This document shows positions 25,359-63,832 of a stretch of 64,000 nucleotides of DNA, piece after piece. How positions within the stretch are numbered: the stretch's first letter is position 1; every line of letters starts with the position of its first letter. The DNA lies in NCBI RefSeq assembly GCF_042453785.1, contig NC_091670.1:682001-746000 (forward strand), read 5' to 3'. The translations under genes and the position numbers were made by a program. The notes below the pieces were generated by a model. That model did not search any database and had not been told where the DNA came from. It saw only the letters and a list, made by a program, of their open reading frames with translations. Source of the stretch: Malus domestica. Its lineage: Eukaryota > Streptophyta > Magnoliopsida > Rosales > Rosaceae.

Positions 25359-25381
25359 TAACGAACGTACCAATTGCATGT

Positions 25382-26112
25382 TGTGGATGCAAATTTCTTC
25401 CTCCTTGATCTTGGACAATTTTGCACCTACAAAACAATTAACACCTTAGGTTAAGGCCAAGAGCCTCACGCGCCCACGATGAATGGGGGGGGCTTTGGCC
25501 GAAGAACCTCCGATGCCAAAGTTAGAATTTAGAGAGAAAGAGTGTTTAAAGAATTTTAGAATTTTTGCCAAAGTGTTGGAATGAATATTTGGTGAAAATA
25601 TGAGCCTATTTATAGGGCTAGGTTGGTTTAGGTTTTATTTTGGTTTAATTAGCCAATTAATTGGCTAATTAAACATAAAAGGAAATATTTTTTGATTATG
25701 GAATTAATTGGCTAATAAAAAGGAAGAAATGGTGAAAAAAGGTAGAAAAAGTGATGGATTAGGTTTTGAATGGGGATAGCCGGCCATGTGGTGTTTTAGG
25801 GTTGAATTGGATGTATTTTGTGGTTATTTGGATATAATGGATGGTTTAATTGACAATTAATGGGTTAATTAGGCAATAAACCCATTAATTAGCCAATTAA
25901 CATAATTTAAAAGGAATGTGTTTGGGAATTACCTTGTAGAAAGGATTTGATGAGATGGACTTTGAATTGTTACCTATTTTGGGCACTTCTGTCTTGGTTG
26001 AAAGAGGGTTGCCCGCTGCTTGCGCGTGGGAACCTCGTTGTACTGCAAAGGTATTTTTGTCCTTTTTGTCCAAAAATCCACGTGTCGCCTTGTGAATATT
26101 TTTGGCTCCACA
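25382..26112 (-). repeat. 3' LTR of the gypsy element
   Basis: 731 bp, pairs with 32068-32797. I count about 12 substitutions and one length change in a G run between the two, so the insertion is fairly recent. The LTR holds an inverted AATTAGCCAATTAATTGGCT type motif. Confidence 0.88.
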
Positions 26113-31903: not shown

Positions 31904-32067
31904 TATATTTTGCTTATACGTTTTATCAAAGAACCTTTGCAAGTAAAAAATTCTAATAATAAGAACGTATGATAAATATTCAAATGGACTAGAAAATAAA
32001 GAAAAAACCTTTTTGTGCGAAAGTCTTCTACGAGTATGGATTTCAACTCTCAATGAAAGCACCAATT

Positions 32068-32797
32068 TGTGGATGCAAATTTCTTCCTCCTTGATCTTGG
32101 ACAATTTTGCACCTACAAAACAATTAACACCTTAGGTTAAGGCCAAGAGCCTCACGCGCCCACGATGAATGGGGGGGCTTTGGCCGAAGAACCTCCGATG
32201 CCAAAGTTAGAATTTAGAGACAAAGAGTGTTTAGAGAATTTTGGGATTTTTGCCAAAGTGTTGGAATGAATATTTGGTGAAAATATGAGCCTATTTATAG
32301 GGCTAGGTTGGTTTAGGTTTTATTTTGGTTTAATTAGCCAATTAATTGGCTAATTAAACATAAAAGGAAATATTTTTTGGTTATGGAATTAATTGGCTAA
32401 TAAAAAGGAAGAAATGGTGAAAAAAGGTAGAAAAAGTGATGGATTAGGTTTTGAATGGGGATAGCCAGCCATGTGGTGTTTTAGGGTTGAATTGGATGTA
32501 TTTTGTGGTTATTTGGATATAATGGATGGTTTAATTGACAATTAATGGGTTAATTAGGCAATAAACCCATTAATTAGCCAATTAACATAATTTAAAAGGA
32601 ATGTGTTTGGGAATTACCTTGTAGAAAAGATTTGATGAGATGGACTTTGAATTGTTACCTATTTTGGGCACTTCTGTCTTGGTTGAAAGAGGGTTGCCCA
32701 CTACTTGCGCGTAGGAACCTCGTTGTACTGCAAGGGTATTTTTGTCATTTTTGTCCAAAAATCCACGTGTCGCCTTGTGAATATTTTTGGCTCCACA
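32068..32797 (-). repeat. 5' LTR of the gypsy element
   Basis: 730 bp, the upstream LTR for transcription on the minus strand. It ends at TGTGGATGC (32068), followed by the primer-binding region inside the element. See the partner at 25382-26112. Confidence 0.88.
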
Positions 32798-37800: not shown

Positions 37801-40800
37801 TAAACAAAATAATGTTCATTTTGTTCAAAGCTTCAAAATGTTATGCACTTATAGAATAATAATGCATGTAAGAAATCAACATCCATATTCCACAATTTTA
37901 GAGTTTAAGCCAGAAAAATAAGGCATATCAAAATAATTGCTCGCATTATGACACAGATGCTACTAAACAAATAAACATCCATGTTGTTCAAGAATTCAAA
38001 ATGTTATGCAGTTACAGAATAATCATACATGTACGAAATCAACATACATATTCCACAATTTTATTAACAAAATAAAAGGAAAAGAAGAAGAAAATATTGT
38101 AGTTGAGCTCCTGCCAACTAATTTAAGCGTGGCATGTAAGATCAGTATAAACACATATTTTATTGCAATGGACCAAGTTAGGATATCCTGGATTTTTAAA
38201 AATCATAAAAGTAAATAACTATAACTCCATTACGTTTTGGACATGGTTTTATGTAAAAATCACACAACTCAGGGATATACACATATGGAAGTGATCTACA
38301 ATTAGGATGTAAAATGCAAGCACACACGCAGTCAAAATTGATAGACTTTAAGACATAATATAATGTTTTATCAATTAATCTATATCATATTTACATCCGT
38401 TAGAAGAAAAAAATACACTGTACTATGAAACCATGCAGCGGAATGAGCGGATATGATCCTGGAATAATTTTATTTTTCTACCGAGCAATGTGAATTCCAA
38501 AACAACCAATTGGAAATCTGAATATTAGCAGTGTAGGAAGCACTTAATGGAGAGTCTACATTACATTTAGGTAACATGTTACATTTGCTACTTTTACAAG
38601 TTGACGACTCAAAGACTAAGTCAAAATCCATCTTTCCATAATTAAATTTGTACGCAATGACATAAACAGAGGGTAATTTCATTGCTCCTACTCGATCCAA
38701 CTGTGGTGGAAACTGTTTCAGGAGGTTAAAGTAAGTTGGGTCATTCCTAAAGGGTGTTTTGAGCTACTAAGCACCAATTTTAAGGCACTTGGAAAAGGGA
38801 AAAAATCCAAAGCTTTGTGGGGTTGCCTGGTATCGGCAATTTTTTGGAATATATGGCTGGAACGCAACAAAAGGATTTTTGAAGACTATACTGGAGTGGG
38901 GGCAGAAGTACTTTGGGGGAGAGTAAAATATTGGGCATCTTTTTGGGCTTCGGTTACTAAAGAGTTTAATAATTGCTCTCTATCTCAAATACTGTGGGAT
39001 TTGTTAGCAGCAGTTAAGTGAGCTAGGTCTAGAATTGGCTACTGTAGCCAAATCCTATTGGGATTTTCCTTTCTAATTTGTTGGTGGACTTCTTATCCAC
39101 TTCTGTGTTTTTCTCTATTCTTTAATAAAATTGTTTCTTCTCAAAAAAAATAAAAATAAAAAATGAAAAGTTACCTCATAATCTCCAATGTTCAGCTCAT
39201 CAAGAAGTTCTGTCAAAATCTTAATAACTTCAAAATCTGGACCCATTTTTTCAAATTGGCCAGCAATATCAAAGTCGCATTGGTAAAATTCACGATATCG
39301 TCCTTTGGACGGATTGTCTCTTCTGTAGACCTTTGCTATTTGGTATCTTCTGTAAGATGTGATACCATTCATAGCTACATATCTAGCAAATGGAACGGTT
39401 AGATCATATCGTAGTGATAAAAGCTCTCCTCCCTGAGGAAAAGATAAATACAAACAGTTTTATTGTCAAACTATAACAACATTGCAACATAGCTGCTAGA
39501 AACCTAAAGGAAGTAGTTATAAGGAAGAAACAGAAGAATATCAAGGCCTTTGTCAAACAATGATAGGCAATTCCCCGAATGATAAATGAAACTATACCCG
39601 TCAGAAAAATACAACAATACCCGTCAGAAAGTTTAAAAAGGATAAAATTACGAGCAAGATGCAACCAACACAAGGTCATCCCTATAACTAATTCCTTAAG
39701 AAAACCACAAAAGAAAATTTAAGGAGTAGCTCCCTAGCTCATGCACATAAAACCTAAAAGGCCTTTTGACGTAATATTTCGTAGCCAAATTAAGAAACAC
39801 TTCATGAAACTTAAAGAAAAATATATTTACTATGGTTAATTATATCAGCACAAAACTAGGTCAAAGCCTTGGACTCGACAGTCTGAATGCCTATCTGGAA
39901 TGCTGTTCTTGGTTAGAATACTTTACGATTTTTCGAAATAGTAAAAGATCACCCAAGAAATCCAGAGTACAAAAAGTGATCTTCGGCTAAAATAGAGCGA
40001 GTACCAAGATCAAACTGAGTTAAGCTTTTATCCCCCACCCCCTCTTCACACTGCATTTGTACGAGTCATGACAATAAAAAACATAGAAATTAACTATGAA
40101 ACATAAAAGCAAAACTCCACTTAAATTGACAACAATTTAAACGGAGAAAGTACCTGGTCAGCAAGATCATAAATCAATTTCGAATCTTCCCCATATTTCC
40201 CCATCAGGGTTTCTCTCAATTCAAAAACTGGAGTGTCAAGGGCTGTGGCACCATGCCTCTGAAAGACCCCTACAATTATTGAGAATGCTTTCTCTCTTAC
40301 TGCCATTTGTTCTTTAGAGAAGTCACGAGTACCCTAGGATTTGCAATAATATATACAAGGTCAGAATGCTAGTAAGTCCACTCTCGCAACCAACAACAAC
40401 AACAACAACAACAACAACAAAGCCTTTTCCCACTAAGTGGGGTCGGCTATATGAATCCTAGAACGCCATTGCGCTCGGTTTTGTGTCATGTCCTCCGTTA
40501 GATCCAAGTAATCAAGTCTTTTCTTAGGGTCTCTTCCAAAGTTTTCCTAGGTCTTCCTCTACCCCTTCGGCCCTGAACTTCTGTCCCGTAGTCACATTTT
40601 CGAACCGGAGCGTCAGTAGGCCTTCTTTGCACATGTCCAAACCACCGGAACCGATTTTCTCTCATATTTCCTTCAATTTTGGCTATTCCTACTTTACCTT
40701 GGATATCCTCATTCCCAATCTTATCCTTTCTCGTGTGCCCATACATCCCACGAAGCATCCTCATCTCCGCTACACCCATTTTGTGTACATGTTGATGCTT

Positions 40801-43800
40801 CACCGCCCAACATTCTGTGCCATACAACATCGTTGGCCTTATTGCCGTCCTATAAAATTTTCCCTTGAGCTTCAGTGGCCTACGACGATCACACAACACG
40901 CCGGATACACTCTTACACTTCATCCATCCAGCTTGTATTCTATGGTTGAGATCTCCATCTAATTCTTCGTTCTCTTGCAAGATAGATCCTAGGTAGCGAA
41001 AACGGTAACTTTTTGTGATCTTCGCTAGATTGCTCCGGTCATTAGTGTGGATAAGTATATAAATGGATAGAGATAGGAAAGCAAACACAAGATGTACGTG
41101 ATTCACCCAGATTGGCTACGTCCACGGAATAGAGGAGTTCTCATTAATTGTGAAGGGTTTACACAAGTACATAGGTTCAAGCTCTCCTTTAGGGAGTACA
41201 AGTGAATGATTTAGTACAAATGACATTAGGAAATATTGTGGGAGAATGATCTCGTAACCACGAAACTTCTAAGTCCCGGAGTGTGGTATCGGCTTGACTT
41301 TCCTTATCTGTCTCATAGGTAGATGTGGAATCTTCTCTGGAAGTACTCTTCCTCCATCCAGGGGTGGTATCTGTAACTGGTGGAGATGCACAAGGTAATG
41401 TATCAATGTCACTTGAAGCTTACTTGTAGTTTCAGGCTTGGTCAAGCGCGATACAAACCATGTAGTAGGAGTCCCCCAAGTCGCCGAGCTAGGGGATCTG
41501 CTGAAAGAGGTAACAGACAAGGTAAGCAATCAGAGCTCCGGCTGATTGTTCACATTCTCCCTATCTTGCAGGCAGCATGAAGGATAAAGAGAAGAAAAAT
41601 GAGAAGAGATGATATGGGATACTTTTGCTTTTGAAGAAGTAACTTTCCACAGGCTTATTCTTGAACTGGGCTGGAGGGTTTTCTGGTTTCCTCCAAAGTA
41701 TAAGGCCGACTGAAGAATTTGAGGGTCAAAACAAGTCCATCAAATCTAGAGTACGTTCGACCCTGCTGATATGGGATACTTTTGCTTTTGACAGAGTAGT
41801 GGATATATCGGCACGTGTGCTGTTACGCTTGTCTCCACATGCTTCCTTGTATCCTTCTCACTTGCCCTATCCTCAGGCAGATGCGGTATCTTCCTTGGAA
41901 GCATAAGATGTTGAAGATGAGTACTCGAGAGCAATGCCAGGGTAAGGGGTTCCAGGCAGTCAGTTCCTGGCTGGAAGCTTGATTCCAAGTGCTGACTGAT
42001 TGCTCTCTTTCTCCTTGTCTTGCAGGTAAGAACAAGGCCAAAGGAAAAGACAGGGAAAAAGCATGATATGGGATACTCTTGCTTTTAACCCTGATGATAT
42101 AAGATATTCTTGCTCTAGTATAGCTTGTTTACAGAGGTATTATCGGGGGGAAAGAAAGCTGAATATTTTGAAAGGCTTCGTTGGGAGTGCCCTCTCAGAT
42201 AAGAGGAAGGGTTGAGCATTTTTGCAGGTCTGCCTGTCCGTTGGGGATGGAGGTCGCCATATATAGGAGTCTCCCTAACATCAAGTAATAATGCTATTCC
42301 TTTACCCTGCTTGGTCATAGCACGGTAGTGGGAGCTGCCAGCTTCACAAGTTTTAACTCTGTCAGAGCACTTTGAAAAAGTGGTCTGTGGTATCTGGAAA
42401 GCTGATGTTGCGTGTGAAGATTACAGACAAGCTTTATCCAAGGAGATCCGGCTCTTGAAGTTGGGAAAGTGGTGCCTCTTCGGTTTTCGAACAAGCAATC
42501 CTGTCGGGGATCTGGCTCTCGAGATTCGGAGAACGATGCCTCTTCGATTTTTGAGAAAGCAATCATGCTGGGGGTCTGGCTCTCGAGATTCGGAGAGCGG
42601 TGTCTTCGATTTTTGAGAAAGCAATCATGCTGGGGGTCTGGCTCTCGAGATTCGGAGAGCGGTGTCTTCGATTTTTGAGAAAGTAATCATGTTGGGAGTT
42701 GGGAGTGTTTTCTCGAATATGAGTAAAGGTTGGGCATGTTTGCTAGTCTACCTTGCCACGAAGCACAGAGGTTGACACACAGGGACTTTCCAATTATCCA
42801 GCAGTGGTACTGTTCCTTTACCCTCTCTTCGATTTTTGAGAAAGTAATCATGTTAGGAGTCTGGCTCTCGAGATTCGGAGGGCGGTGCCTCTTCGATTTT
42901 GGAGCAAGCAATCTTGTTGGGGGTGTTTTCTCGAATGTGAGTAAAGGTTGGGCATGTTTGCTAGTCTACCTTGCCACGAAGCACAGAGGATGACACACAG
43001 GGACTTTCAAATTATCCAGCAGTGGTACTGTTCCTTTACCCTCTATTCGATTTTTGAGAAAGTAATCATGTTGGGAGTCTGGCTCTCGAGATTCGGAGGG
43101 CGATGCCTCTTCGATTTTGGGGCAAGCAATCTTGTTGGGAGTGTTTTCTCGAATGTGAGTAAAGGTTGGGCATGTTTGCTAGTCTACCTTGCCATGAAGC
43201 ACAGAGGTTGACACACCGGGACTTTCCAATTATCCAGCAGTGGTACTGTTCCTTTACCCTTGTGGGTAATAATATGGTAGCTAGGCCGTCAAAATTTATG
43301 TGTCTAAACTTTGTTAGTGTTGTTTCTTTGCTATTCTTTTACCCTTCTTGGTCAGAGCGATGTAGTGAGAGTTGCAAGCTTCACGTGTCTCGACTTTGTC
43401 AGAGAACTTTGGCAAAGTTATATGTGGTACCCATGAGCTACTGTTGCGTGTGGGAAGTGGGTGATTAAACAGTACGATTCATGTGCTTTCTACTTCGCCA
43501 GAAATCTTCGACAGAATGCCCATAATTTCCGCAAAGCTGAGTGTGCGTGTGACAGGTGCTGACAAGGCTGGAAAAGTAGTCTCAACTTTGTCAGAGAACT
43601 TTGGCAAAGTTATATGTGGTACCCATGAGCTACTGTTGCGTGTGGGAAGTGGGTGATTGAACAGTACGATTCATGTGCTTTCTACTTCGCCAGAAATCTT
43701 CGACATAATGCCCATAATTTCCGCAAAGCTGAGTGTGCGTGTGACAGGTGCTGACAAGGCTGGAAAAGTAGGTGCCTCTTCGATTTCTGAGATCGACCCT

Positions 43801-46800
43801 CGTGGTCTCTGAGCAGCCCAGCTTTTGAGAAAGCAAACCTCTTCGATTTCTGAGATCGGCCCTCGTGGTCTCTGGGCAGCCCAGCTTTTGAGAAAGCAAA
43901 CCTCTTCGATTTCTGAGATCGGCCCTCGTGGTCTCTGAGCAGCCCAGCTTTTGAGAAAGCAAACCTCTTCGATTTCTGAGATCGGCCTTCGTGGTCTTTG
44001 AGCAGCCCAGCTTTTGAGAAAGCAAACGCCTCTTCGATTTCTGAGATCGACCCTCGTGGTCTCTGAGCAGCCCAGCTTTTGAGAAAGCAAACGCCTCTTC
44101 GATTTCTGAAGCTTCGTCGAGTGCAGATTTTTATAGAGGCTAACATTAAGTTCCAAAGCACACTTGAATATCCACTTGTAGAAGCTCCATTCTTGCACTT
44201 CTAAGAACTTGATTTGTCCGACCTCTTCTCTCTTCTACACCTTTGAAAATGTCTGGCCCCTCCGACCGTCGTTTTGACTTGAACCTTGTTGAAGAGGCAG
44301 CCCCGCCTTCTCCAGACAACATATGGCGCCCATCCTTCGTCTCCCCTATTGGTCCTCTTACCGTTGGGGATTCCGTGATGAAGAATGATATGACCGCTGC
44401 GGTAGTGGCCAGGAACCTTCTCACTCCCAAAGATAACAGACTACTTTCCAAACGGTCTGATGAGTTGGCTGTTAAGGATTCTCTGGCACTTAGTGTTCAG
44501 TGTGTAGGTTCTGTGTCTAATATGGCACAACGCCTATTTGCTCGAACCCGCCAAGTTGAATCATTGGCGGCTGAAGTGATGAGTCTCAAACAGGAGATTA
44601 GAGGGCTCAAGCATGAGAATAAACAGTTGCACCGGCTCGCACATGACTATGCTACAAACATGAAGAGGAAGCTTGACCAGATGAAGGAATCTGATGGTCA
44701 GGTTTTACTTGATCATCAGAGATTTGTGGGTTTGTTCCAAAGGCATTTATTGCCTTCGTCTTCTGGGGCTGTACCGCGTAATGAGGCTCCAAATGATCAA
44801 CCTCTGATGCCTCCTCCTTCTAGGGTTCTGTCCAGTACTGAGGCTCCGAATGATCCCCCTCCGGTGCCTTCTCTTTCTGGGGCTCTACCGACTGCCGAGA
44901 CTTCTCCTAAGCAACCTTTGTGAAGGCTCCCTCTTGTTTGTTTATTTTGACTCAAGTATATGTACATATTTGTAATTTATCAAGATATCAATAAATAAGC
45001 TTTCCTTCATTTCAACGTATTGTGTTAAATCACCAAAGCCTTCTTCGCTAAGTTCTTTGAATTTTCTTTTGTTGAAGCTTGTATGTTGGAGCTTTGTGAG
45101 TGGAGCATGTAGGTTGAGGTAGTGTTCCCTTAATTTCCCGAACGAGGACAACTTCTCGGTTGGAGACTTGGAAAATCCAAGTCACTGAGTGGGATCGGCT
45201 ATATGAATCTTAGAACGCCATTGTGTTCTGTCCTGTGTCATGTCCTCCGTTAGATCCAAGTACTCTAAGTCTTTTCTTAGGGTCTCTCTCAAAGTTTTCC
45301 TGGGTCTTCCTCTACCCCTTCGGCCCTGAACCTCTGTCCCATAGTCGCATCTTCTAATCGGAGCGTCAGTAGGCCTTCTTTGCACATGTCCAAACCACCG
45401 TAACCGATTTTCTCTCATCTTTCCTTCAATTTCGGCTACTCCTACTTTACCCCGGATATCCTCATTCCTAATCTTATCATTTCTCGTGTGCCCACACATC
45501 CAACGAAGCATCCTCATCTCCGCTACACTCATTTTGTGTACGTGTTGATGCTTCACCGCCCAACATTCTGTGCCATACAGCATCGCCGGCCTTATTGCCG
45601 TCCTATAAAATTTTCCCTTGAGCTTCAGTGGCATACGGCGGTCACACAACACGCCGGATGCACTCTTCCACTTCATCCATCCAGCTTGTATTCTATGGTT
45701 GAGATCTCCATCTAATTCTCCGTTCTTTTGCAAGATAGATCCTAGGTAACGAAAACGGTCGCTCTTTGGTATTTCTTGATCTCCGATCCTCACCCCTAAC
45801 TCGTTTTGGCCTCCATTTGCACTGAACTTGCACTCCATATATTCTGTCTTTGATCGGCTCAGGCGAAGACCTTTAGATTCCAACACTTCTCTCCAAAGGT
45901 TAAGCTTTGCATTTACCCCTTCTTGAGTTTCATCTATCAACACTATATCGTCTGCGAAAAGCATACACCAAGGAATATCATCTTGAATATGTCTTGTTAA
46001 CTCATCCATTACCAACGCAAAGAGGTAAGGACTTAAGGATGAGCCTTGATGTAATCCTACAGTTATGGGAAAGCTTTCGGTTTGTCCTTCATGAGTTCTT
46101 ACGGCAGTCTTTGCTCCTTCATACATATCCTGTATAGCTTGGATATATGCTACTCGTACTCCTTTCTTCTCTAAAATCCTCCAAAGAATGTCTCTTGGGA
46201 CCCTATCATACGCTTTTTCCAAATCTATAAAGACCATGTGTAAATCCTTTTTCCCATCTCTATATCTTTCCATCAATCTTCGTAAGAGATAGATTGCCTC
46301 CATGGTTGAGCGCCCTGGCATGAACCCGAATTGGTTGTCCGAAACCCGTGTCTCTTGCCTCAATCTATGCTCAATGACTCTCTCCCAGAGCTTCATTGTA
46401 TGACTCATTAGCTTAATACCCCTATAGTTCATGCAATTTTGTACATCGCCCTTATTCTTGTAGATAGGCACCAAAGTGCTCGTTCGCCACTCATTTGGCA
46501 TCTTCTTCGTTTTCAAAATCCTATTGAAAAGGTCAGTGAGCCATGTTATACCCGTCTCTCCCAAAACTTTCCACACTTCGATTGGTATATCGTCTGGGCC
46601 TACTGCTTTTCTATGCTTCATCTTCTTCAAAGCTACAACCACTTCTTCCTTCCGGATTCTACGATAAAAAGAGTAGTTTCTACACTCTTCTGAGTTACTC
46701 AACTCCCCTAAAGAAGCACTCCTTTCATGTCCTTCATTGAAAAGATTATGAAAATAACCTTTCCATCTGTCTTTAACCGCGTTCTCTGTAGCAAGAACCT

Positions 46801-49800
46801 TTCCATCCTCATCCTTGATGCACCTCACTTGGTTTAGGTCCCTTGTCTTCTTTTCCCTTGCTCTAGCTAGTTTATAGATATCCAACTCTCCTTCTTTGGT
46901 ATCTAGTCGTTTATACATATCGTCATAAGCCGCTAACTTAGCTTCGCTCACAGCTTTCTTCGCCTCTTGCTTCGCTTTTCTATACCTTTCACCATTTTCA
47001 TCGGTCCTATCCTTGTATAAGGCTTTACAACATTCCTTCTTAGCCTTCACCTTTGTTTGTACCTCCTCATTCCACCACCACGATTCCTTTTGGTGTGGGG
47101 CAAAGCCCTTGGACTCTCCTAATACCTCTTTTGCTACTTTTCGGATACAACTAGCCATGGAATCCCACATTTGGTTAGCTTCCCCCTCTCTATCCCACAC
47201 ACACTGGGTGGTTATTTTCTCTTTGAAAATGACTTGTTTTTCTTCTTTTAGATTCCACCATCTAGTCCTTGGGCACTTCCAAGTCTTGTTCTTTTTTCTC
47301 ACTCTTTTGATATGTACATCCATCACCAACAAGCGATGTTGATTAGCCACGCTCTCTCCTGGTATAATTTTGCAATCCTTACAAGTTATACGATCCCTTT
47401 TCCTCATTAGAAGAAAATCTATTTGTGTTTTTGACGACCCACTCTTGTGGGTGATCACATGTTCTTCCCGCTTCTTAAAGAAGGTGTTGGCTAAGAAGAG
47501 ATCATATGCCATTGCAAAATCCAAGATAGCTTCCCCATCCTCGTTTCTCTCCCCAAAACCATGGCCACCATGAAAACCTCCATAGTTGCCTGTCTCCCTG
47601 CCCACGTGTCCATTTAAATCTCCTCCTATAAATAACTTCTCCGTCTGAGCAATTCCTTGCACCAAGTCTCCAAGGTCTTCCCAAAATTTCTCCTTCGAAC
47701 TCGTATCCAACCCTACTTGAGGTGCGTACGCACTAATCACATTGATAAGTTCTTGTCCTATTACAATCTTAATTGCCATGATTCTATCTCCTACCCTCTT
47801 GACATCTACAACATCTTGTGTCAAGGTCTTGTCCACAATGATGCCAACACCGTTTCTCGTTCTATTTGTGCCCGAATACCATAGTTTAAACCCTGAGTTT
47901 TCTAGATCCTTTGCCTTACGCCCAACCCACTTAGTTTCTTGTAGGCACATAATATTTATCCTTCTCCTCACCATAACTTCTACTACTTCCATAGATTTTC
48001 CCGTCAAGGTTCCTATATTCCACGTTCCTAAACGCATTTTGCTCTCTTGAACTCTACCCTTCTGTCCTAGCTTCTTCACCATTCCCCGTCTAATAGGATC
48101 AAAGTACTTCTTTTGTGTGTCCCGTGTAAAGTTGATAGGAGCATATGCTCCCAAACAACTTTGAGTGGAGTCGTTCGAAAAGAAGTTTCTATAGCCCCCT
48201 TGCTCATTTAACACTGCATCCGGGTGCCGATGGAACAAAAGAACATAATCTGCAAGGGCAACTGCAACAGATTCCTGAGTATGGTTTCTTAAAGATGCAC
48301 ATTCACACAATTGTAAAAAACTTTCAATTCTTTCCAAATGATCACGGATTACAGATTCAAATTTCTGTTCGTATTGAACTACAAAGGTGCAATATCTTCT
48401 AAGAAAACTCACTTGTTTTCAAGGACAACACAAAGTAACAGGTAGATCATAATAACCACACATGGTTATCCAGAAAATCACAAACACAGTTTCCCAAATA
48501 AAAAGGTAAAACAAAACGATAAGAAAAGAATGAAATTAATTTTCTACTACAAATCAATGAAATAATGTGGATTAGAGAAAATACTCCGGGACAGATATGA
48601 TATGTCATTAATGATCCACTGTTATCAAATATTGACATATCCTATAACTGCATAAGATATATGCGTACATCAATTACACAGATAGATAGGGACTAGTTAG
48701 ATATCCCTCTTGGGTTTTCAATTATTAAAATATGATGGACTAGTTAGATAGGGTCATTGATTCTAGCTTTCTCTACACAAAAAGTGAGATGTATCAAGTA
48801 AGAGAGCTAAGGAGCAGGATACAAGTATAGGTTATGGGTAATGTATAAATCAAATAGATGAGCATACACTGGTGTAAAAAATATTTAGCCCTGAGTTACT
48901 GAGTGAAAACTTGATTCTCCATTAACATGTATTGAAATGCTACAGAACTGAATTGTTAACAATATTATTTCATTGATTTCTTAGTTTATTAACCATCCAA
49001 CACACATTCTGCAAACACTAGTTCAGGGATCAAGTAAACTCCCGAGCCACAAACTAGTAAAAGGTGAACAAACTGCATTAATTGTAACTTAAGTATTAAC
49101 AATTTCAGTCCAGCTTACTCTGCTTCCTTCCCAACTAAGCACGTGTTTCCATTCTAAACTAAAGTGTGGTAAGCCAAATTCTTTTAAGAGAGATACTAAT
49201 ATGGACCATCTGGAAATAAAAGAAACAACAACAACAACAACAACAAAACCTTTTCCCACTAAGTGGGGTCGGCTATATGAATCCTAGAACGCCATTGCGC
49301 TCGGTTTTGTGTCATGTCCTCCGTTAGATCCAAGTACTCTAAGCCTTTTCTTAGAGTCTCTTCCAAAGTTTTCCTAGGTCTTCCTCTACCCCTTCGGCCC
49401 TAAACCTCTGTCCCGTAGTCACATCTTCGAACCGGAGCGTCAGTCGGCCTTCTTTGCACATGTCCAAATCACCGGAACCGATTTTCTCTCATCTTTCCTT
49501 CAATTTCGGCTACTCCTACTTTACCTCGGATATCCTCATTCTCAATCTTATCCTTTCTCGTGTGCCCACACATCCCACGAAGCATCCTCATCTCTGCTAC
49601 ACCCATTTTGTGTACGTGTTGATGTTTCACCGCCCAACATTTTGTGCCATACAACATCGCTGGCCTTATTGCCGTCTTATAAAATTTTCCCTTGAGCTTC
49701 AGTGGCCTACGACGGTCACACAACATGCTGGATGCACTCTTACACTTCATCCATCCAGCTCGTATTCTATGGTTAAGATCTCCATCTAATTCTCCGTTCC

Positions 49801-52800
49801 CTTGTAAGATAGATCCTAGGTAGCGAAAACGGTAACTTTTTGTGATCTTCGCTAAATTGCTCCGGTCATTAGTGTGGATAAGTATATAAATGGATAGAGA
49901 TAGGAAAGCAAACACAAGATGTACGTGGTTCACCCAGATTGGCTACGTCCACGGAATAGAAGAGTTCTCATTAATTGTGAAGGGTTTACACAAGTACATA
50001 GGTTCAAGCTCTCCTTTAGTGAGTACAAGTGAATGATTTAGTACAAATGACATTAGAGTACAAATGACATTAGGAAATATTGTGGGAGAATGATCTCGTA
50101 ATCACGAAACTTCTAAGTATCGGAGTGTGGTATCATCTTGACTTGCCTTATCTGTCTCATAGGTAGATGTGGCAGCTTCTCTGGAAGTACTCTTCCTCCA
50201 TCCAGGGGTGGTATCTTTAACTGGTGGAGATGCACAAGGTAATGTATCAATTTCACTTGAAGCTTACTTGTAGTTTCAGGCTTGGTCAAGCGCGATACAA
50301 ACCATGTAGTAGAAGTCCCCCAAGTCGCCGAGCTAGGGGATTTGCTGAAAGAGGTGACATACAAGGTAAGCAATCAGAGCTCCGGCTGATTGTTCACCTT
50401 CTCCCATCTTGCAGCAGCATGAAGGATAAAGAGAAGAAAAATGAGAAGAGATGATATGGGATACTTTTGCTTTTGAAGAAGTAACTTTCCACAGGCTTAT
50501 TCTTGAACTGAGCTGGAGGGTTTTCTGGTTTCCTCCAGAGTATAAGGCCGACTGAAGAATTTGAGGGTCAAAACAAGTCCATCAAATCTAGAGTACGTTC
50601 GACCCTGCTGATATGGGATACTTTTGCTTTTGACAGAGTAATGGATGGATCGGCACGTGTGCTGTTACGCTTGTCTCCACATGCTTCCTTGTATCCTTCG
50701 CACTTGCCCTATCTGTTCCTCAAGCAGATGCGGTATCTTCCCTGGCAACATAAGATGTTGAAGATGAGTACTCGAGAGCAATGCCAGGTAAGTAACCAGG
50801 TAAGGGGTTCCAGGCTGTCAGTTCCTGGCTGGGAGCTTGATTTCAAGTGCTGACTGATTGCTCTCTTTCTCCTTGTCTTGCAGGTAAAAACAAGGCCAAA
50901 GGAAAAGACAGGGAAAAAGCATGATATGGGATACTCTTGCTTTTAACCCTGATGATATGAGATATTCTTGCTCTAGTATAGCTTGTTTGCAGAGGTATTA
51001 TCGGGGGGAAATAAAGCTGAATATTTCGAAAGGCTTCGTTGGGAGTGCCCTCTCAGATATGAGGAAGGGTTGAGCATTTTTGCAGGTCTGCCTGTCCGTT
51101 GGGGATGGAGGTCGACATATATAGGAGTCTCCCTAACAACTAGTAATGCTATTCCTTTACCCTGCTTGGTCATAGCACGGTAGTGGGAGCTGCCAGCTTC
51201 ACATGTTTTAACTCTGTCAGAGCACTTTGAAAAAGTGGTATGTGGTATCTGGCTCTCGAGATTCGGAGAACGATGCTTCTTCGATTTTTGAGAAAGCAAT
51301 CATGGTGGGGGTCTGGCTCTCGAGATTCGGGGAGCAGTGTCTCTTCGATTTTTGAGAAAGTAATCATGTTGGGAGTCTGGCTCTCGAGATTCGGAAGGCG
51401 GTGCCTCTTCGATTTTGGAGTAAGCAATCTTGTTGGGAGTGTTTTCTCGGATGTGAGTAAAGGTTGGGCATGTTTGCTAGTCTACCTTGCCACGAAGCAC
51501 GGAGGTTGACACACAGGGACTTTCCAATTATCCAGCAGTGGTACTGTTCCTTTACCCTTGTGGGTAATAATATGGTAGCTAGACCTTCAAAATTTATGTG
51601 TCTAAACTTTGTTAGTGCTGTTTCTTTGCTATTCTTTTACCTTTCTTGGTCAGAGCGATGTTGTGGGAGCTGCAAGCTTCACGTGCTCAACTTTGGCAGA
51701 GACTTTGACAAAGTTATCTGTGGTACCCATGAGCTATTGTTGCGTGTGGGAAGTGGGTGATTGAACAGTAAGATTCATGTGCTTTCTACTTCACCAGAAG
51801 TCTTCGACAGAATGCCCATAATTTCCGCAAAGCTGAGTGTGCATGTGACAGGTGCTGACAAGGCTAGAAAAGAAGGTGCCTCTTCGATTTCTGAGATCGG
51901 CCCTCGTGGTCTCTGAGCAGCCCAGCTTTTGAGAAAGCGAGCGCCTCTTCGATTGATTCGGAGAACGATGCCTCTTCGATTTTTGAGAAAGCAATCATGC
52001 TGGGGGTCTAGCTCTCGAGATTCGGGGAGCAGTGTCTCTTCGATTTTTGAGAAAGTAATCATGTTGGGAGTCTGGCTCTCGAGATTCGGAGGGCGGTGCC
52101 TCTTCGATTTTGGAGCAAGCAATCTTGTTGGGAGTGTTTTCTCGAATGTGAGTAAAGGTTGGGCATGTTTGCTAGTCTACCTTGCCACGAAGCACAGAAG
52201 TTGACACACAGGGACTTTCCAATTATCCAGCAATGGTACTGTTCCTTTACCCTCTCTTCGATTTTTGAGAAAGTAGTCATGTTGGGAGTCTGGCTCTTGA
52301 GATTCGGAGGACGGTGCCTCTTCGATTTTGGAGCAAGCAATCTTATTGGGAGTGTTTTCTCGAATGTGAGTAAAGGTTGGGCATGTTTGCTAGTCTACCT
52401 TGCCACGAGGCACAGAGGTTGACACACAGGGACTTTCCAATTATCCAACAGTGGTACTGTTCCTTTACCCTTGTGGGTAATAATATGGTAGCTAGACCTT
52501 CAAAATTTATGGGTCTAAACTTTGTTAGTGCTGTTTCTTTGCTATTCTTTTACCCTTCTTGGTCAGAGCGATGTAGTGGGAGCTGCAAGCTTCACGTGCT
52601 CAACTTTGGCAGAGAACTTTGGCAAAGTTATCTGTGGTACCCATGAGCTATTGCTGCGTGTGGGAAGTGGGTGATTGGACAGTAAGATTCATGTGTTTTC
52701 TACTTCCCCAGAAGTCTTCGACAGAATACCCATAATTTCCGCAAAGCTGAGTGTGCGTGTGACAGGTGCTGACAAGGCTGGAAAAGTAGGTGCCTCTTCG

Positions 52801-55800
52801 ATTTCTGAGATCGGCCCTCGTGGTCTCTGAGGAGCCCAGCTTTTGAGGAAGCGAGCGCCTCTTCGATTTCTGAGATCGGCTTTCGTGGTCTTTGAGCAGC
52901 CCAACTTTTGAGAAAGCAAACACCTCTTCGATTTATGAGATCAACCCTCGTGGTCTCTAAGCAGCCCAACTTTTGAGAAAGCAGGCGCCTCTTCGATTTC
53001 TGAGCAGGCGCCTCTTCGATGTCTGAAGCTCCGTCGAGTGCAGCTTTTTATAGGGGCTGGCATTAAGTTCCAAAGCACACTTGAATCTCCACCAGTAGAA
53101 GCTCCATTCTTGCACTTCTAAGATCTTGATTTGTCCGACCTCTTCTCTCTTCAATACCTTTGAAAATGTCTGGCCCCTCCGACCGTCGTTTTGACTTGAA
53201 CCTTGTTGAAGAGGCAGCCCCGCCTTCTCCAGACAACATATGGCGCCCATCCTTCGTCTCCCCTACTGGTCCTCTTACCGTTGGGGATTCCGTGATGAAG
53301 AATGATATGACCGCTGCGGTGGTGGCCAGGAACCTTCTCACTCCCAAAGATAACAGACTACTTTCCAAACGGTCTGATGAGTTAGCTGTTAAGGATTCAC
53401 TGGCTCTCAGTGTTCAGTGTGCAGGTTCTGTGTCTAATATGGCCCAACGCCTATTTGCTCGAACCCGCCAAGTTGAATCATTGGCGGCCGAAGTGATGAG
53501 TCTCAAACAGGAGATTAGAGGGCTCAAGCATGAGAATAAACAGTTGCACCGGCTCGCACATGACTATGCTACAAACATGAAGAGGAAGCTTGACCAGATG
53601 AAGGAAACTGATGGTCAGGTTTTACTTGATCATCAGAGATTTGTGGGTTTGTTCCAAAGGCATTTATTGCCTTCGTCTTCTGGGGCTGTACCGCGTAATG
53701 AAGCTCCAAATGATCAACCTCTGATGCCTCCTCCTTCTAGGGTTCTATCCAGTACTGAGGCTCCGAATGATCCCCTCCGATGCCTTCTCTTTCTGGGGCT
53801 CTACCGACTGCTGAGACTTCTCCTAAGCAACCTTTGTGAAGGCTCCATCTTGTTTGTTTATTTTGACTCATGTATATGTACATATTTGTAGCTTATCGGG
53901 GATATCAATAAATAAGTTTTCCTTCATTTCAACGTATTGTGTTAAATACACCAAAGTCTTCTTCGCTAAGTTCTTTGAATTTTCTTTTGTTGAAGCTTGT
54001 ATGTTGAAGCTTTCTGAGTGGAGCATGTAGGTTGGGGTAGTGTTCCCTTAATTTTTCGAGTGAGGAAAACTTCTCGGTTGGAGACTTGGAAAATCCAAGT
54101 CACTGAGTGGGATCGGCTATATGAATCTTAGAACGCCATTGTGCTCGGTCCTATGTCATGTCCTTCGTTAGATCCAAGTACTCTAAGTCTTTTCTTAGAG
54201 TCTCTTCCAAAGTTTTCCTAGGTCTTCCTCTACCCCTTCGGCCCTAAACCTCTGTCCCATAGTCGCATCTTCTAATCGGAGCGTCAGTAGGCCTTCTTTG
54301 CACATGTCCAAACCACCGTAACCGATTTTCTCTCATCTTTCCTTCAATTTCGGCTACTCCTACTTTACCCCGGATATCCTCATTCCTAATCTTATCCTTT
54401 CTCGTGTGCCCACACATCCAACGAAGCATCCTCATCTCCGCTACACCCATTTTGTGTACGTGTTGATGCTTCACCGCCCAACATTCTGTGCCATACAGCA
54501 TCGCCGGCCTTATTGCCGTCCTATAAAATTTTCCCTTGAGCTTCAGTGGCATACGGCGGTCACACAACACGCCAGATGCACTCTTCCACTTCATCCATCC
54601 AGCTTGTATTCTATGGTTGAGATCTCCATCTAATTCTCCGTTCTTTTGCAAGATAGATCCTAGGTAACGAAAACGGTCGCTCTTTGGTATTTCTTGATCT
54701 CCGATCCTCACCTCTAACTCGTTTTGGCCTCCATCTGCACTGAACTTGCACTCCATATATTCTGTCTTTGATCGGCTTAGGCGAAGACCTTTAGATTCCA
54801 ACACTTCTCTCCAAAGATAAAACCAATAACTAGCCACATATATAAAATTCAAAGTTGTAAAGGGGTTAAAAATGATAGCTAACTTTTCAAAGTTTATGTT
54901 GATGTAAAAACTCGCTCTAAGAGTGCTTTTAAAGATGACTACTTAAACAACTTCACTATTAGGGGGGACAAGTAACGATCAACTTAGAAGAACTTTTATC
55001 AAACTTTCATTTTTATCTTTTTTTCATTATCCACATCTACCGTACAAGAAGGAACATGTCGAATAAAAGGTTATCTAAAGCCACCAATCAAGTAACACAT
55101 GAAAATCAATCCGTTAATCATCTTGAATCATATCTGATCAACTATACTTTAGATTAAATGTCATGAGTACTCGAATCTTACCTTTGCAATCTTTGGGAGT
55201 CTTCTACTCTCATTGCTTTCCACTATCTCCTTCACTTTGCTCAAAAAACAATCAAATTCCGGGTTCTTGAGGTCAAAAAACAATAAAAACTCGTCCGCCC
55301 AATTTACCAACAACCCCAAACTATCAACAGCATTTCCTCCCTTGCCCTGCAACCTATCTTTAATCAACTGTACTACAACACCAGTCCCTTTACCCAAAAC
55401 TACCTTCTTCTTCTTCTTCTCACTCTTCTTGTCCACTTTCATATTCCCTCCTCCATTCACTTCACTACCTTCACTCTTGTTCAACTCCGCTCCCTCAAGC
55501 GCCACAAATGCCATTAATGCCTCCCAAGTCACAATCTTCCACACAATTCCCATCAACACATTCACTTCGCAAGCAAACTTATCATAATTCTCTTCCGCCT
55601 CGGAACCCAATTGGGAAACCAAGTTGTACCCACTTCTCAAGCTTTCGCTACTTGGGCATTTCTTCTCAAACAATGCGACCAAACTTGACCTCAAATCCTC
55701 ACTCCCCACCTCATCCACAATCATCTTCGCACGGGACAAACTACGGTCACCCAAGTGATAAAGCGCCAAAGCCACTGACAACAATGCGGTCCCCACTGTC

Positions 55801-60300: not shown

Positions 60301-63300
60301 CACAATTTGGACAGATGTTGATGGAGTCTATAGTGCAGATCCCAGAAAAGGTTCGTATTGCCTTTGTATTTGGTCAACAGTATAAAATATTATAACTTTT
60401 AATAGCTATACATATAAATACAGGTGCACATTTTTTTGTGTTTTTTTTGGGAGGATAATAATTGGTTGATGCCATTTTGAGAAGGGGTGTGCTATCCACA
60501 CACCCCAAATTACTTCTCACACACCCCTTGTTAATTTCTGTCCATTGATCTTCTTTAATTCATCCAATCCGGCGGCCGAAAATTAAAAGGGTGTGTGAGA
60601 AGTAAAATGGGGTGTGTGGATATCACACCCCTTTTGAGAAAGCTAAAAATGTTACTGAGTTACCGTGGGATTTAACTAATGATAAGAAATCTCCATCTGC
60701 AGTCAGTGAGGCAGTGATTCTGAAGACTTTGTCTTATCAAGAAGCCTGGGAAATGGTGAACCTCACTACTCACCATCAAAGTTTCTGAGATTGGTGCGTT
60801 TACAAATATGACATTTAATATACATGTATGTGCAGTCTTATTTTGGGGCAAATGTTCTGCATCCACGCACTATCATCCCAGTGATGAGATATGACATTCC
60901 AATTATAATAAGGAACGTTTTCAACCTTGCTGCACCTGGAACAAAAATTTGTCGCTCTACTGAGGATGAAACTGCCCAGGGTTTGGAGTCGTTTGTCAAA
61001 GGGTTTGCCACAATAGACAACTTGGCTCTTGTCAATGTGGAAGGGTGAGCTTTGCATTATAGTGATTGTTGCTGGATTTGAATTAAAATATTTACTTTCC
61101 CCCATTTTTGTAACATTCTCCTTTGTTTATCACAGAACTGGAATGGCTGGTGTTCCTGGTACAGCCAGTGCTATCTTTAGTGCCGTAAAAGATGTTGGGG
61201 CTAATGTTATTATGATATCTCAGGTTACTTCATCCTCTGAATCCATTATGTTCATGGCATGCTGATAGAGTAACACATCTATGATGCTCAATGTTGTTAG
61301 TGATGATTCTCTGTAGGCTAGTAGTGAGCACTCTGTGTGCTTTGCTGTCCCTGAGAAGGAAGTGAATGCTGTTTCTGAGTTACTGCAGTCTAGATTTCGT
61401 GAGGCTTTGAATGTTGGGCGTCTTTCTAAGGTGCTTACTCTTTATTTGACTAATTTTCTTGGCCAGGTTGCTTGATACTTGCCTAAGCAGATCAAGGACA
61501 ATGTACTGACATTTACAATTAATTTATTATTTATTTACTAATGAAAAACCTATTGGACCCACATTTTGTGGATCAGTTAAAAAAATTACAGCTTACAAGA
61601 AGAGTTGAAAATGGTGACATGAATTTTAATGTCAAAGCCTGTTGGTTTTATATCAGATTTGTTTGTTTCCTTGTGAATACTGAAATTGCGCTCTATTTCA
61701 TTTCTATTATTGAATGGATCTTTGGTTCATTTTTATACCAATTTCTGGCACCTCCTCCCTCTCAGGTTCAAGTCATTCCAAACTGTAGTATTTTGGCAAC
61801 GGTTGGCCAAAAAATGGCCAGTACTCCAGGAGTTAGTGCAACTCTTTTCAATGCACTGGCAAAGGTTAGGGATTTATTATATTCTATTAATTTTAGCAAC
61901 AAGTTGGATTATTATATTGGATTTTAACAATTCATAGTTTGTATACTGGTTTACAATGTGGGTTATTGTAGTCTTTGATTCTCATAATCCATTATTACAT
62001 TATGAAGGGATATAAATTGTTTCATAAAATGCAGGCAAACATTAATGTGCGTGCCATTGCTCAAGGTTGTTCTGAGTACAATATTACTGTAGTTGTAAAG
62101 CGGGAGGATTGTATTAGGGCTCTGAGAGCTGTCCATTCTAGATTCTATCTTTCAAGAACCACAATAGCAATGGGCATCATCGGACCTGGTCTGATTGGTG
62201 CCACATTACTAGATCAATTAAGGGATCAGGTACATTATTTCACCTTTTCTTTTGTTATTATCTGGGTTTTGTACAATATAGCACATGTAATCTGTCAATG
62301 AAAATTCTTCATGGCACTTAGAAGCTGAGAACTTAGAAGAGCTCAGTTTGGTCAGATTGTATCGTTCTGTGTGCTTTGTTGGTGGCCTTTTTTGGTTTTT
62401 GCATATTGGTACCCATCCTAGTCGGATTTAGTTTAGAGAGCAGCAATATGTTGAATTGTACTGAATCCATTCTTGTCCTGTTTATGAGGTGAGATGTGGG
62501 TTGCTTGTGTATAGAAAATACAGCCAAATGAATAGTAAAAATATTCTGAGGGCATGCATGTTGTTCATCTACAGCCACATACAAGTTAAAATAGTTTCAT
62601 GACCCAACCAATTGAGTTATTCTCCCTAAATTTATCATCTTCATCGTAAGTTTATAGTTGCCTCCTCTCTCTCTTCCCACACTCACACACACTTTGCTCT
62701 GTATTTACTGTCAAAGTATATTGCTTCTCTTACTAACCAAACTTTGATGAACACCGGATGTTTTGAATTTCTTTCATATGGTTGGGCAAATCATTAAAAT
62801 TGAAATTTTCAAATCTTTGCAGACAGCTACCCTCAAGGAAGAGTTTAACATTGATTTGCGTGTTATGGGAATCACTGGCTCACAGACAATGCTTTTGAGT
62901 GAGGCGTAAGTTAAAAAGCTTTCAATGGAATATCATTTAATCAAATGCTTTTCATAATCTGAAGTAGACCTTTTGATGGTGGTGGTCTAATTCGTACGTC
63001 TTTAATGAAATGTTTTTGAATTGATAATTGACCAACATGCTTCTTTTAAGTAGCGGAAATTGCCTCTTTCCACAGTCCAATTACTATATATGCAGAACTT
63101 CAAAAGTTAGTTCTCCATGTTATTCTTTTTAAATTTCAACCTTTTCCATTGTAATTTTTTCTATATTTACAACAACAACAACAACAAGACTTAGAGTACT
63201 TGGACCTAACGGAAGGGGTGACACATAACCGAGCACAATGGCGTTCTAGGATTCATATAGCCGACCCCACTTAGTGGGAAAAGGCGTTGTTGTTGTTACA

Positions 63301-63832
63301 ACAACAACAACAGCAAAGCATTATCCAACTAAGTGGGGTCGGCTATATGAATCTTAGAACGCCACTGCGCTCGGTTTTGCAGCTAGTCTTTCTTTAGCTA
63401 CAAGTACTCCATGTCTTTTCTTAAAGTCTATGTCCAAGTCTTCCTAGGTCTTGCTCTACCCTTTTTCCCATGAGCCTCTGTCTCATAAAGTCATCCATGT
63501 CTTCGTATAGGTTGGCAATAATAGTTAAATACATTTACTCCTCAAATCATTCACTCTATAGTTTCACTTCCAGGAACCCTAATCTTTTTATTTTTCATTG
63601 TTGTAGGGGTGTTGACTTATCTAGATGGAGAGAACTCCAAAAAGAGAAAGGAGTAGTAGCAGATATGGAAAAGTTTGTGCAGCATGTACATGGGAATCAT
63701 TTTATTCCAAATACTGTTTTGGTTGACTGCACAGCTGACTCTAGTATTGCAAGCCATTATTATGAATGGTTGCGGAAAGGAATTCACGTAGTCACTCCCA
63801 ACAAAAAGGCAAACTCAGGGCCACTTGATCAA
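57383..63832 (+). CDS. bifunctional aspartokinase-homoserine dehydrogenase, plastid (3' part outside window)
   Basis: Plastid enzyme for the first and third steps of threonine/methionine synthesis from aspartate. Thirteen exons: 57383-57528, 58268-58353, 58456-58830, 59863-59951, 60047-60350, 60703-60755, 60836-61044, 61136-61223, 61317-61430, 61766-61864, 62035-62229, 62823-62905, 63607-63832; all joins keep frame, 689 codons so far of an expected 910-920. Residues 1-75 look like a transit peptide. Aspartokinase: KFGGT (100-104), TGFIAST, GSDFSAAIMGAL, TDVDGVYSADPR. Regulatory ACT part: GTGMAGVPGTASAIFSAVKD and a second related unit (GQKMASTPGVSATLFNAL). Homoserine dehydrogenase: Rossmann GPGLIG (571-576) and the TPNKKANSGPLDQ segment at the last exon seen. 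Exon 2 has a weak acceptor. Threonine feedback control is known for the family. Confidence 0.94.
59030..59528 (-). mobile_element. 5'-truncated LINE with 14-bp target duplication
   Basis: The LINE piece 59044-59514 reads on the minus strand: [53 protein letters not shown] and LLAAVK at the end, then an A-rich tail seen as T's at 59043-59050. It is flanked by ATTACAAACAATAT at 59030-59043 and 59515-59528. It sits in intron 3 of the aspartokinase gene against the direction of the gene. Confidence 0.9.
60482..60633. mobile_element. 152-bp MITE in an aspartokinase intron
   Basis: The outer arms AAGGGGTGTGCTATCCACAC and its inverse, GTGTGGATATCACACCCCTT, continue inward through ACACCCC..TTACTTCTCACA to about 45 bp, with three or four mismatches. 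TTGAG flanks both ends (60477-60481 and 60634-60638). The middle (TTAATTTCTGTCCATTGATC) is unique. It lies in intron 5. Confidence 0.82.
63172..63500. mobile_element. two RTE 3' ends in opposite orientation
   Basis: 63190-63298 reads on the plus strand as the RTE C terminus ([20 protein letters not shown], then RIHIADPT and stop) and ends with GTTGTTGTT. It begins with ACAACAACA repeats. Directly after, 63299-63500 is an older RTE 3' end on the minus strand, starting with ACAACAACAACAACAGC. Both sit in intron 12 of the aspartokinase gene. Confidence 0.72.

Follow-up and report, generated by a model that had tools for sequence, protein, structure and literature searches.

Two copies of a composite repeat lie within 15 kb of each other in the apple (Malus domestica) genome, raising the question of whether the composite spreads as a unit or was doubled together with the intron around it. 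Each copy consists of two parts of an RTE-type long interspersed nuclear element (LINE) separated by a segment of about 4.2 kb, here called X. The window, i.e., the whole stretch of 64,000 nucleotides under analysis, corresponds to C10:682001-746000, and searches covered the 651 Mb genome (19 contigs). Our results support mobilisation of this chimera as a unit by LINE-type insertion and not by segmental duplication, because each of its joints occurs at more than 1,800 sites, the copies share a common tail and vary in their 5' ends, some have target duplications, and empty sites exist.

A first-pass annotation had proposed the order RTE, X, RTE with a (TTG)n tail for both copies, and self-comparison of the window bears this out: on the minus strand, each copy runs from the RTE frame through X to a second RTE 3' end and (TTG)n, with two joints common to both copies. 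We refer to the passage from the inner RTE part into X as joint B and to that from X into the outer RTE part as joint A, the latter differing among three subfamilies. The junctions predicted at 41006/41007 and 45178-45182 (copy 1) and at 49833/49834 and about 54100 (copy 2) were recovered, as was the end of copy 2 about 700 bases into the RTE. Copy 1, described as full length, does hold the whole endonuclease-reverse transcriptase (EN-RT) frame, but it starts at 48234 rather than 48412. The features are as follows (LTR, long terminal repeat; UTR, untranslated region):

40391..48234, minus strand: chimeric RTE copy 1, subfamily 1; about 220 bp short at its 5' end, with the whole EN-RT frame
45182..48082, minus strand: RTE frame of copy 1; in-frame ATG at 48082, 966 aa
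45183..45192, minus strand: joint B of copy 1; ten bases, CCACTCAGTG in the chimera and the LTR, CCACTTAGTG in RTE tails
41008..45182, minus strand: copy 1, segment X; 4.2 kb of LTR (3' portion) in RTE orientation, containing tandem repeats (62-63, 192 and 218 bp)
41006..41012, minus strand: joint A, subfamily 1; LTR to ..GATCACAAA, then RTE
40421..41007, minus strand: outer RTE part of copy 1, made up of the RTE coding end plus a short 3' UTR
40391..40420, minus strand: (TTG)n tail of copy 1
49219..54816, minus strand: copy 2; subfamily 1, older; truncated at its 5' end so that about 700 bp of the RTE frame remain
49834..54100, minus strand: copy 2, segment X; joint B near 54100, joint A near 49834
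49257..49842, minus strand: outer RTE part of copy 2, with its (TTG)n tail following

The doubled RTE end appears as an internal repeat in copy 1 (40431-41015 matching 45183-45768, 92.3%, 586 bp) and in copy 2 (49257-49842 matching 54101-54686, 93.0%), and the two copies match each other at 91% (40398-42637/49224-51440) and 95% (43901-45898/52793-54816). X proved to be 4.2 kb from the 3' side of an LTR, lying in the same sense as the RTE. The unit is not flanked by two LTRs; a single LTR piece lies inside it, with an RTE 5' end and an RTE tail at its ends. An antisense LTR, first suggested by a plus-strand open frame, was ruled out by the LTR ends and a primer-site-like sequence, both sense to RTE. 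Two plus-strand frames, open from stop to stop and antisense to RTE, lie in X (44213-44923, 236 codons; 53130-53891, 253 codons); the former has no Pfam match, and its region also matches LTR loci.

Both junction sequences are dispersed far beyond the window. An exact 27-mer across joint B that includes the RTE side had 1,866 matches (880 + 986), joint A of subfamily 1 had 1,825 exact matches (897 + 928), and the RTE tail was found 1,326 + 1,401 times, with reversed controls at 0 for all three. The best 40 of 906 candidates for a 201 bp joint-A query were 99-100% identical and spread over many chromosomes, and a joint-B query gave 40 scored matches from 999 candidates. A 20-mer with 3,314 matches was set aside as a count of chimeras because native LTRs carry it too. 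The joints also occur together: on C1, joint B lay 3.2-4.5 kb upstream on the same strand at 47 of 73 joint-A sites (0 in wrong-order and wrong-strand controls). Among the first 100 exact RTE tails listed, all on C1 and up to 23.6 Mb, 42 had joint A close upstream and 54 had joint B; at least 67 had one or both and hence belong to chimeras (downstream controls, 0 and 1).

The annotation had read a common tail with a variable 5' end as the mark of LINE-style mobilisation, and the dispersed copies agree. The match ended at the TTG tail in all eight joint-A loci fetched (the window's own being one), and the 3' flanks were unrelated, with 0 of 210 pairs matching (21 loci with a tail, 208-700 bp each). 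Twelve of the 30 joint-B loci, again including the window's own, ended at 12 different RTE positions, and 18 ran beyond the stretch fetched. Both ends could be read in 20 copies (a 21st was excluded, its tail missing from the fetched piece), and 7 of these, three full-length copies among them, had duplications of 11-22 bp directly adjoining both ends (lengths include letters that also belong to the tail). In the control, a shared run of at least 10 bases anywhere, abutment not required, occurred in 4 of 380 mismatched pairs. At the window, no duplication abuts copy 1, and no clear one was seen by eye outside copy 2.

The DNA on either side of each copy has a paralogue on C5 that carries neither insertion. 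Between its matching flanks lie about 38 bp at the copy 1 site and some 50 bp at the copy 2 site that are absent from the window, which fits small target deletions at the window insertions, although indels on the C5 side would look alike. The same paralogue (L091, 1415-1506) holds its own RTE end, roughly 90 bp long and about 126 bp away from the copy 1 site, apparently inserted independently. The annotation's second explanation, a segmental tandem duplication of the intron with later loss, would account for two copies within 15 kb. However, the outer flanks of copies 1 and 2 do not match (the single match listed is the shared spacer against itself), the copies differ in divergence and fall in different branches of subfamily 1, the C5 paralogue lacks both, and the family is dispersed. 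Duplicated flanking DNA was found neither for the two window copies nor among the 3' flanks of the 21 loci with a tail, and for this locus we regard the explanation as having almost no chance of being right.

Variation at joint A bears on whether the family had one origin. A pattern search for the end of X lacking the usual RTE bases after it gave 207 exact genome matches, at least five of the 100 listed being subfamily-1 joints with small changes. Ten fetched loci comprised seven of subfamily 2, one of subfamily 3, one plain LTR end and one altered subfamily-1 joint. In subfamily 2 the LTR runs to CTTAATA and the RTE resumes from 45990; in subfamily 3 the LTR runs to ..GTGCATCAACA and the RTE resumes from 46040. 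Seven further subfamily-3-like loci all had RTE directly after CATCAACA (one has CATCAACC), whereas six plain-LTR-like loci continued after CATCAACA into TTTGGCGC (three) or other DNA (three). With L064, the plain LTR end above, included, TTTGGCGC.. followed the LTR end in 4 of 7 LTR loci and other DNA in 3 of 7, and we therefore take CATCAACA as the LTR 3' terminus. Overall, the RTE follows the LTR 3' terminus ..GTGCATCAACA immediately in 8 of 8 subfamily-3 loci (one variant). Separately, five X-end matches lie about 32 kb apart on one strand at G000:C4:7264164-7392341, probably a 32 kb segment repeated in tandem.

Joint B was also found upstream in the subfamily 2 (3/3) and subfamily 3 (1/1) loci traced. 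In a tree of 37 RTE-end pieces (from 14 of 30 joint-B loci and 7 of 8 joint-A loci; L074, a short row, was dropped), 18 outer and 19 inner pieces separated (100/99), and within each group subfamilies 1 and 2 were apart; the root was a midpoint only and the bootstrap unsettled. This split indicates that the two RTE parts already differed when they were joined and have stayed together ever since, and the mirrored clades of inner and outer parts point to one origin. Here, we show common descent of the sampled copies, as read from their sequences. Several independent LTR-RTE fusions, hinted at by the other forms of joint A, were ruled out by the joint B shared in the four subfamily 2 and 3 loci and by the mirrored tree. 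Divergence in X was 0.5% among young subfamily-1 copies and 5.8% between these and subfamily 2; X of copy 2 and L070 differed from young copies by 3.1-3.7% (14 pairs).

How, then, were the parts joined? The sequence of joint B is informative. CGACCACTCAGTGACTTGGA occurs at 717 exact genome places, and in eight that were fetched the likeness to the chimera starts at CCACTCAGTG; L075, an LTR fetched for another purpose, carries the same ten bases. RTE tails have CCACTTAGTG at this position (2,727 exact versus 3 with C). The chimera has the C of the LTR, which turns the RTE stop TAG into CAG, so that the next codon, TGA, ends the frame. The inner RTE has no tail, joint B falling in its last codons. 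Candidates for other arrangements were rejected: three matches to an RTE end with CAGTG before a plain RTE tail were two mutated outer ends of chimeras and one RTE piece beside another chimera, and three loci in which X starts after other bases were two 5'-truncated copies and one mutated joint. That joint B falls within ten bases nearly identical in LTR and RTE favours a return to an intact RTE mRNA by template switching over a read-through transduction.

We consider it reasonably probable that an LTR landed in an RTE, that a template switch followed, and that the resulting chimeric LINE was copied in cis with the LTR serving as an outsized 3' UTR. First, a solo LTR or an LTR retrotransposon would have inserted in the RT region of an RTE copy, setting joint A at the LTR 3' terminus; such a landing is probable because the subfamily-3 RTE part starts at that terminus in all eight loci. 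RNA from the broken locus would then have been reverse transcribed at a target, and after the RTE end and most of the LTR had been copied, the enzyme may have jumped, within the ten near-identical bases, onto an intact RTE mRNA at its 3' end, creating joint B and restoring a whole frame. If the enzyme requires only an RTE 3' end and tail, the chimera could copy itself in cis. Small deletions at joint A would later have given subfamilies 1 and 2, of which subfamily 1 would have been copied recently.

The annotation had instead suggested that X may have been carried as a 3' transduction of about 4.8 kb ending in the tail of a downstream RTE. Under this reading, an RTE upstream of an LTR and a second RTE would have been transcribed past its own end, the long RNA inserted, and the upstream tail lost later. 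The same order of parts and the LINE-style spread of the unit would follow, and the carriage of X in a unit ending in the insertion tail does stand. The inner RTE, however, is tailless and ends in bases shared with the LTR, and the subfamily-3 downstream RTE begins at the LTR end, which transduction does not require; LTR insertion followed by a template switch therefore fits better. Foreign DNA beyond a complete 3' end of the inner RTE was not found among loci that, being chosen by the joint, could not show a kept tail. We judge transduction improbable. Joint B could also have formed in DNA, through microhomology-mediated repair or ectopic recombination rather than by a reverse transcriptase, and the ten near-identical bases would suit this; yet the RTE and the LTR-broken RTE would have to be brought together in the correct order, and we give such joining a rather small chance.

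Several observations weigh against the LTR insertion and template switch. No abutting duplication was seen in 13 of the 20 copies, copy 1 included, one of which has a 15 bp match that does not abut. The eight LTR loci above were fetched with a pattern containing the ten bases and could not reveal an LTR lacking them, just as the query across joint B could not show an RTE keeping its tail. The founding RTE-to-LTR 5' joint was not found in a narrow search with an exact 18-mer, whose one match was a point-mutated chimera. Finally, the subfamily order depends on the joint and on a single row for subfamily 3 in the unsettled tree.

Is the chimera able to move itself? The copy 1 frame runs from ATG 48082 to 45182 (966 aa) with no internal stop and contains endonuclease (PF03372) and reverse transcriptase (PF00078) domains with a FADD motif; the closest solved structures are of LINE-1 ORF2p (query started at 48073). 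Its assignment to the RTE clade is based on the tail and on general features of such elements. The open frame reaches 48418, but four dispersed copies extending past 48234 match the window only as far as 48234, so the frame must continue there into flanking DNA. Among eight copies traced 5', three end at 47737-47873, one slightly past 48234 and three at a shared outer end 218-219 bp beyond 48234; L044 had no match. The final 533 codons are open in 10 of the 18 copies spanning them (the window's own being one), and all 30 joint-B loci, selected by joint B, end ADPTQ*. Judging from these coding features, the chimera is probably a self-sufficient RTE-clade LINE of about 8.1 kb.

According to passages in PMC3747384 and PMC2887409, RTE-clade LINEs likewise have an EN-RT frame and undergo 5' truncation, and their native 3' UTR is short and holds simple repeats, which in plants are (TTG)n. 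Their target duplications are 6-12 bp (PMC2887409), versus 11-22 bp in the 7 of 20 copies that have them here. Unlike them, the chimera has 4.2 kb of LTR between frame and 3' end, and two RTE coding ends. To our knowledge, it seems rare for a LINE to absorb a large piece of another element and yet found a big family. Families of L1 3' transductions show that a LINE can carry foreign downstream DNA and pass it on; in the chimera, by contrast, the tail comes from a second, related RTE piece, the frame's own tail is gone, and the joint lies in shared bases. Template-switch chimeras have been described among Arabidopsis Sadhu copies (some copies; a passage in PMC2848041) and for LINE-1 (a passage in PMC13174262), the proposed cause being joining of RNAs during reverse transcription. 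The apple chimera differs from these in retaining an enzyme frame and in having founded a large family. SVA elements, unlike the apple chimera, are not known to have an enzyme frame. Both combine in one unit an LTR part with tandem repeats and with a tail on which a LINE enzyme acts (a passage in PMC13174262). The tobacco TS SINE (short interspersed nuclear element) shares only about its last 100 bases and TTG repeats with an RTE, so RNAs ending in an RTE 3' end, chimera and TS alike, can evidently be copied, although TS-type SINEs are small, tRNA-derived and without an enzyme gene (passages in PMC3747384). Because TS shares only that end, the plant RTE enzyme probably needs little beyond it, which would account for the harmlessness of the 4.2 kb of LTR placed between frame and tail.

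A search of titles and abstracts in the open-licence literature, with Repbase outside its scope, returned no RTE-LTR chimera in apple. LINE/RTE-BovB sequence amounts to 10,996,014 bp in apple, 2,200,632 in European pear and 4,408,634 in Chinese pear (Table 4 of PMC3974708), 16 of the 22 repeat classes in that table being smaller in apple than in European pear. In the GDDH18 apple assembly, LINEs account for 4.1% (a passage in PMC13334179). The RTE excess of apple over pear could be due to the chimera. More tentatively, and with somewhat less than even confidence, we propose that one template switch rescued an LTR-broken RTE, that the chimera became the main Malus RTE lineage and largely makes up the five-fold excess over European pear, and that its LTR part may aid its transcription or protect it from silencing. 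With the LTR terminus, the shared bases and the later subfamilies all preserved across more than 1,800 exact joints, the event is readable to the base, so that ideas on how LINEs gain new 3' ends are directly testable with this family. Repeat annotation calls for caution, as LTR-like and LINE-like pieces here are one element.

The window contains other repeats: an inverted pair of short RTE ends, tail to tail, at 63186-63487; a direct repeat of 732 bp, 98% identical, at 25381-26112 and 32067-32797; and a tandem array with units of about 228 and 328 bp at 1825-2878.

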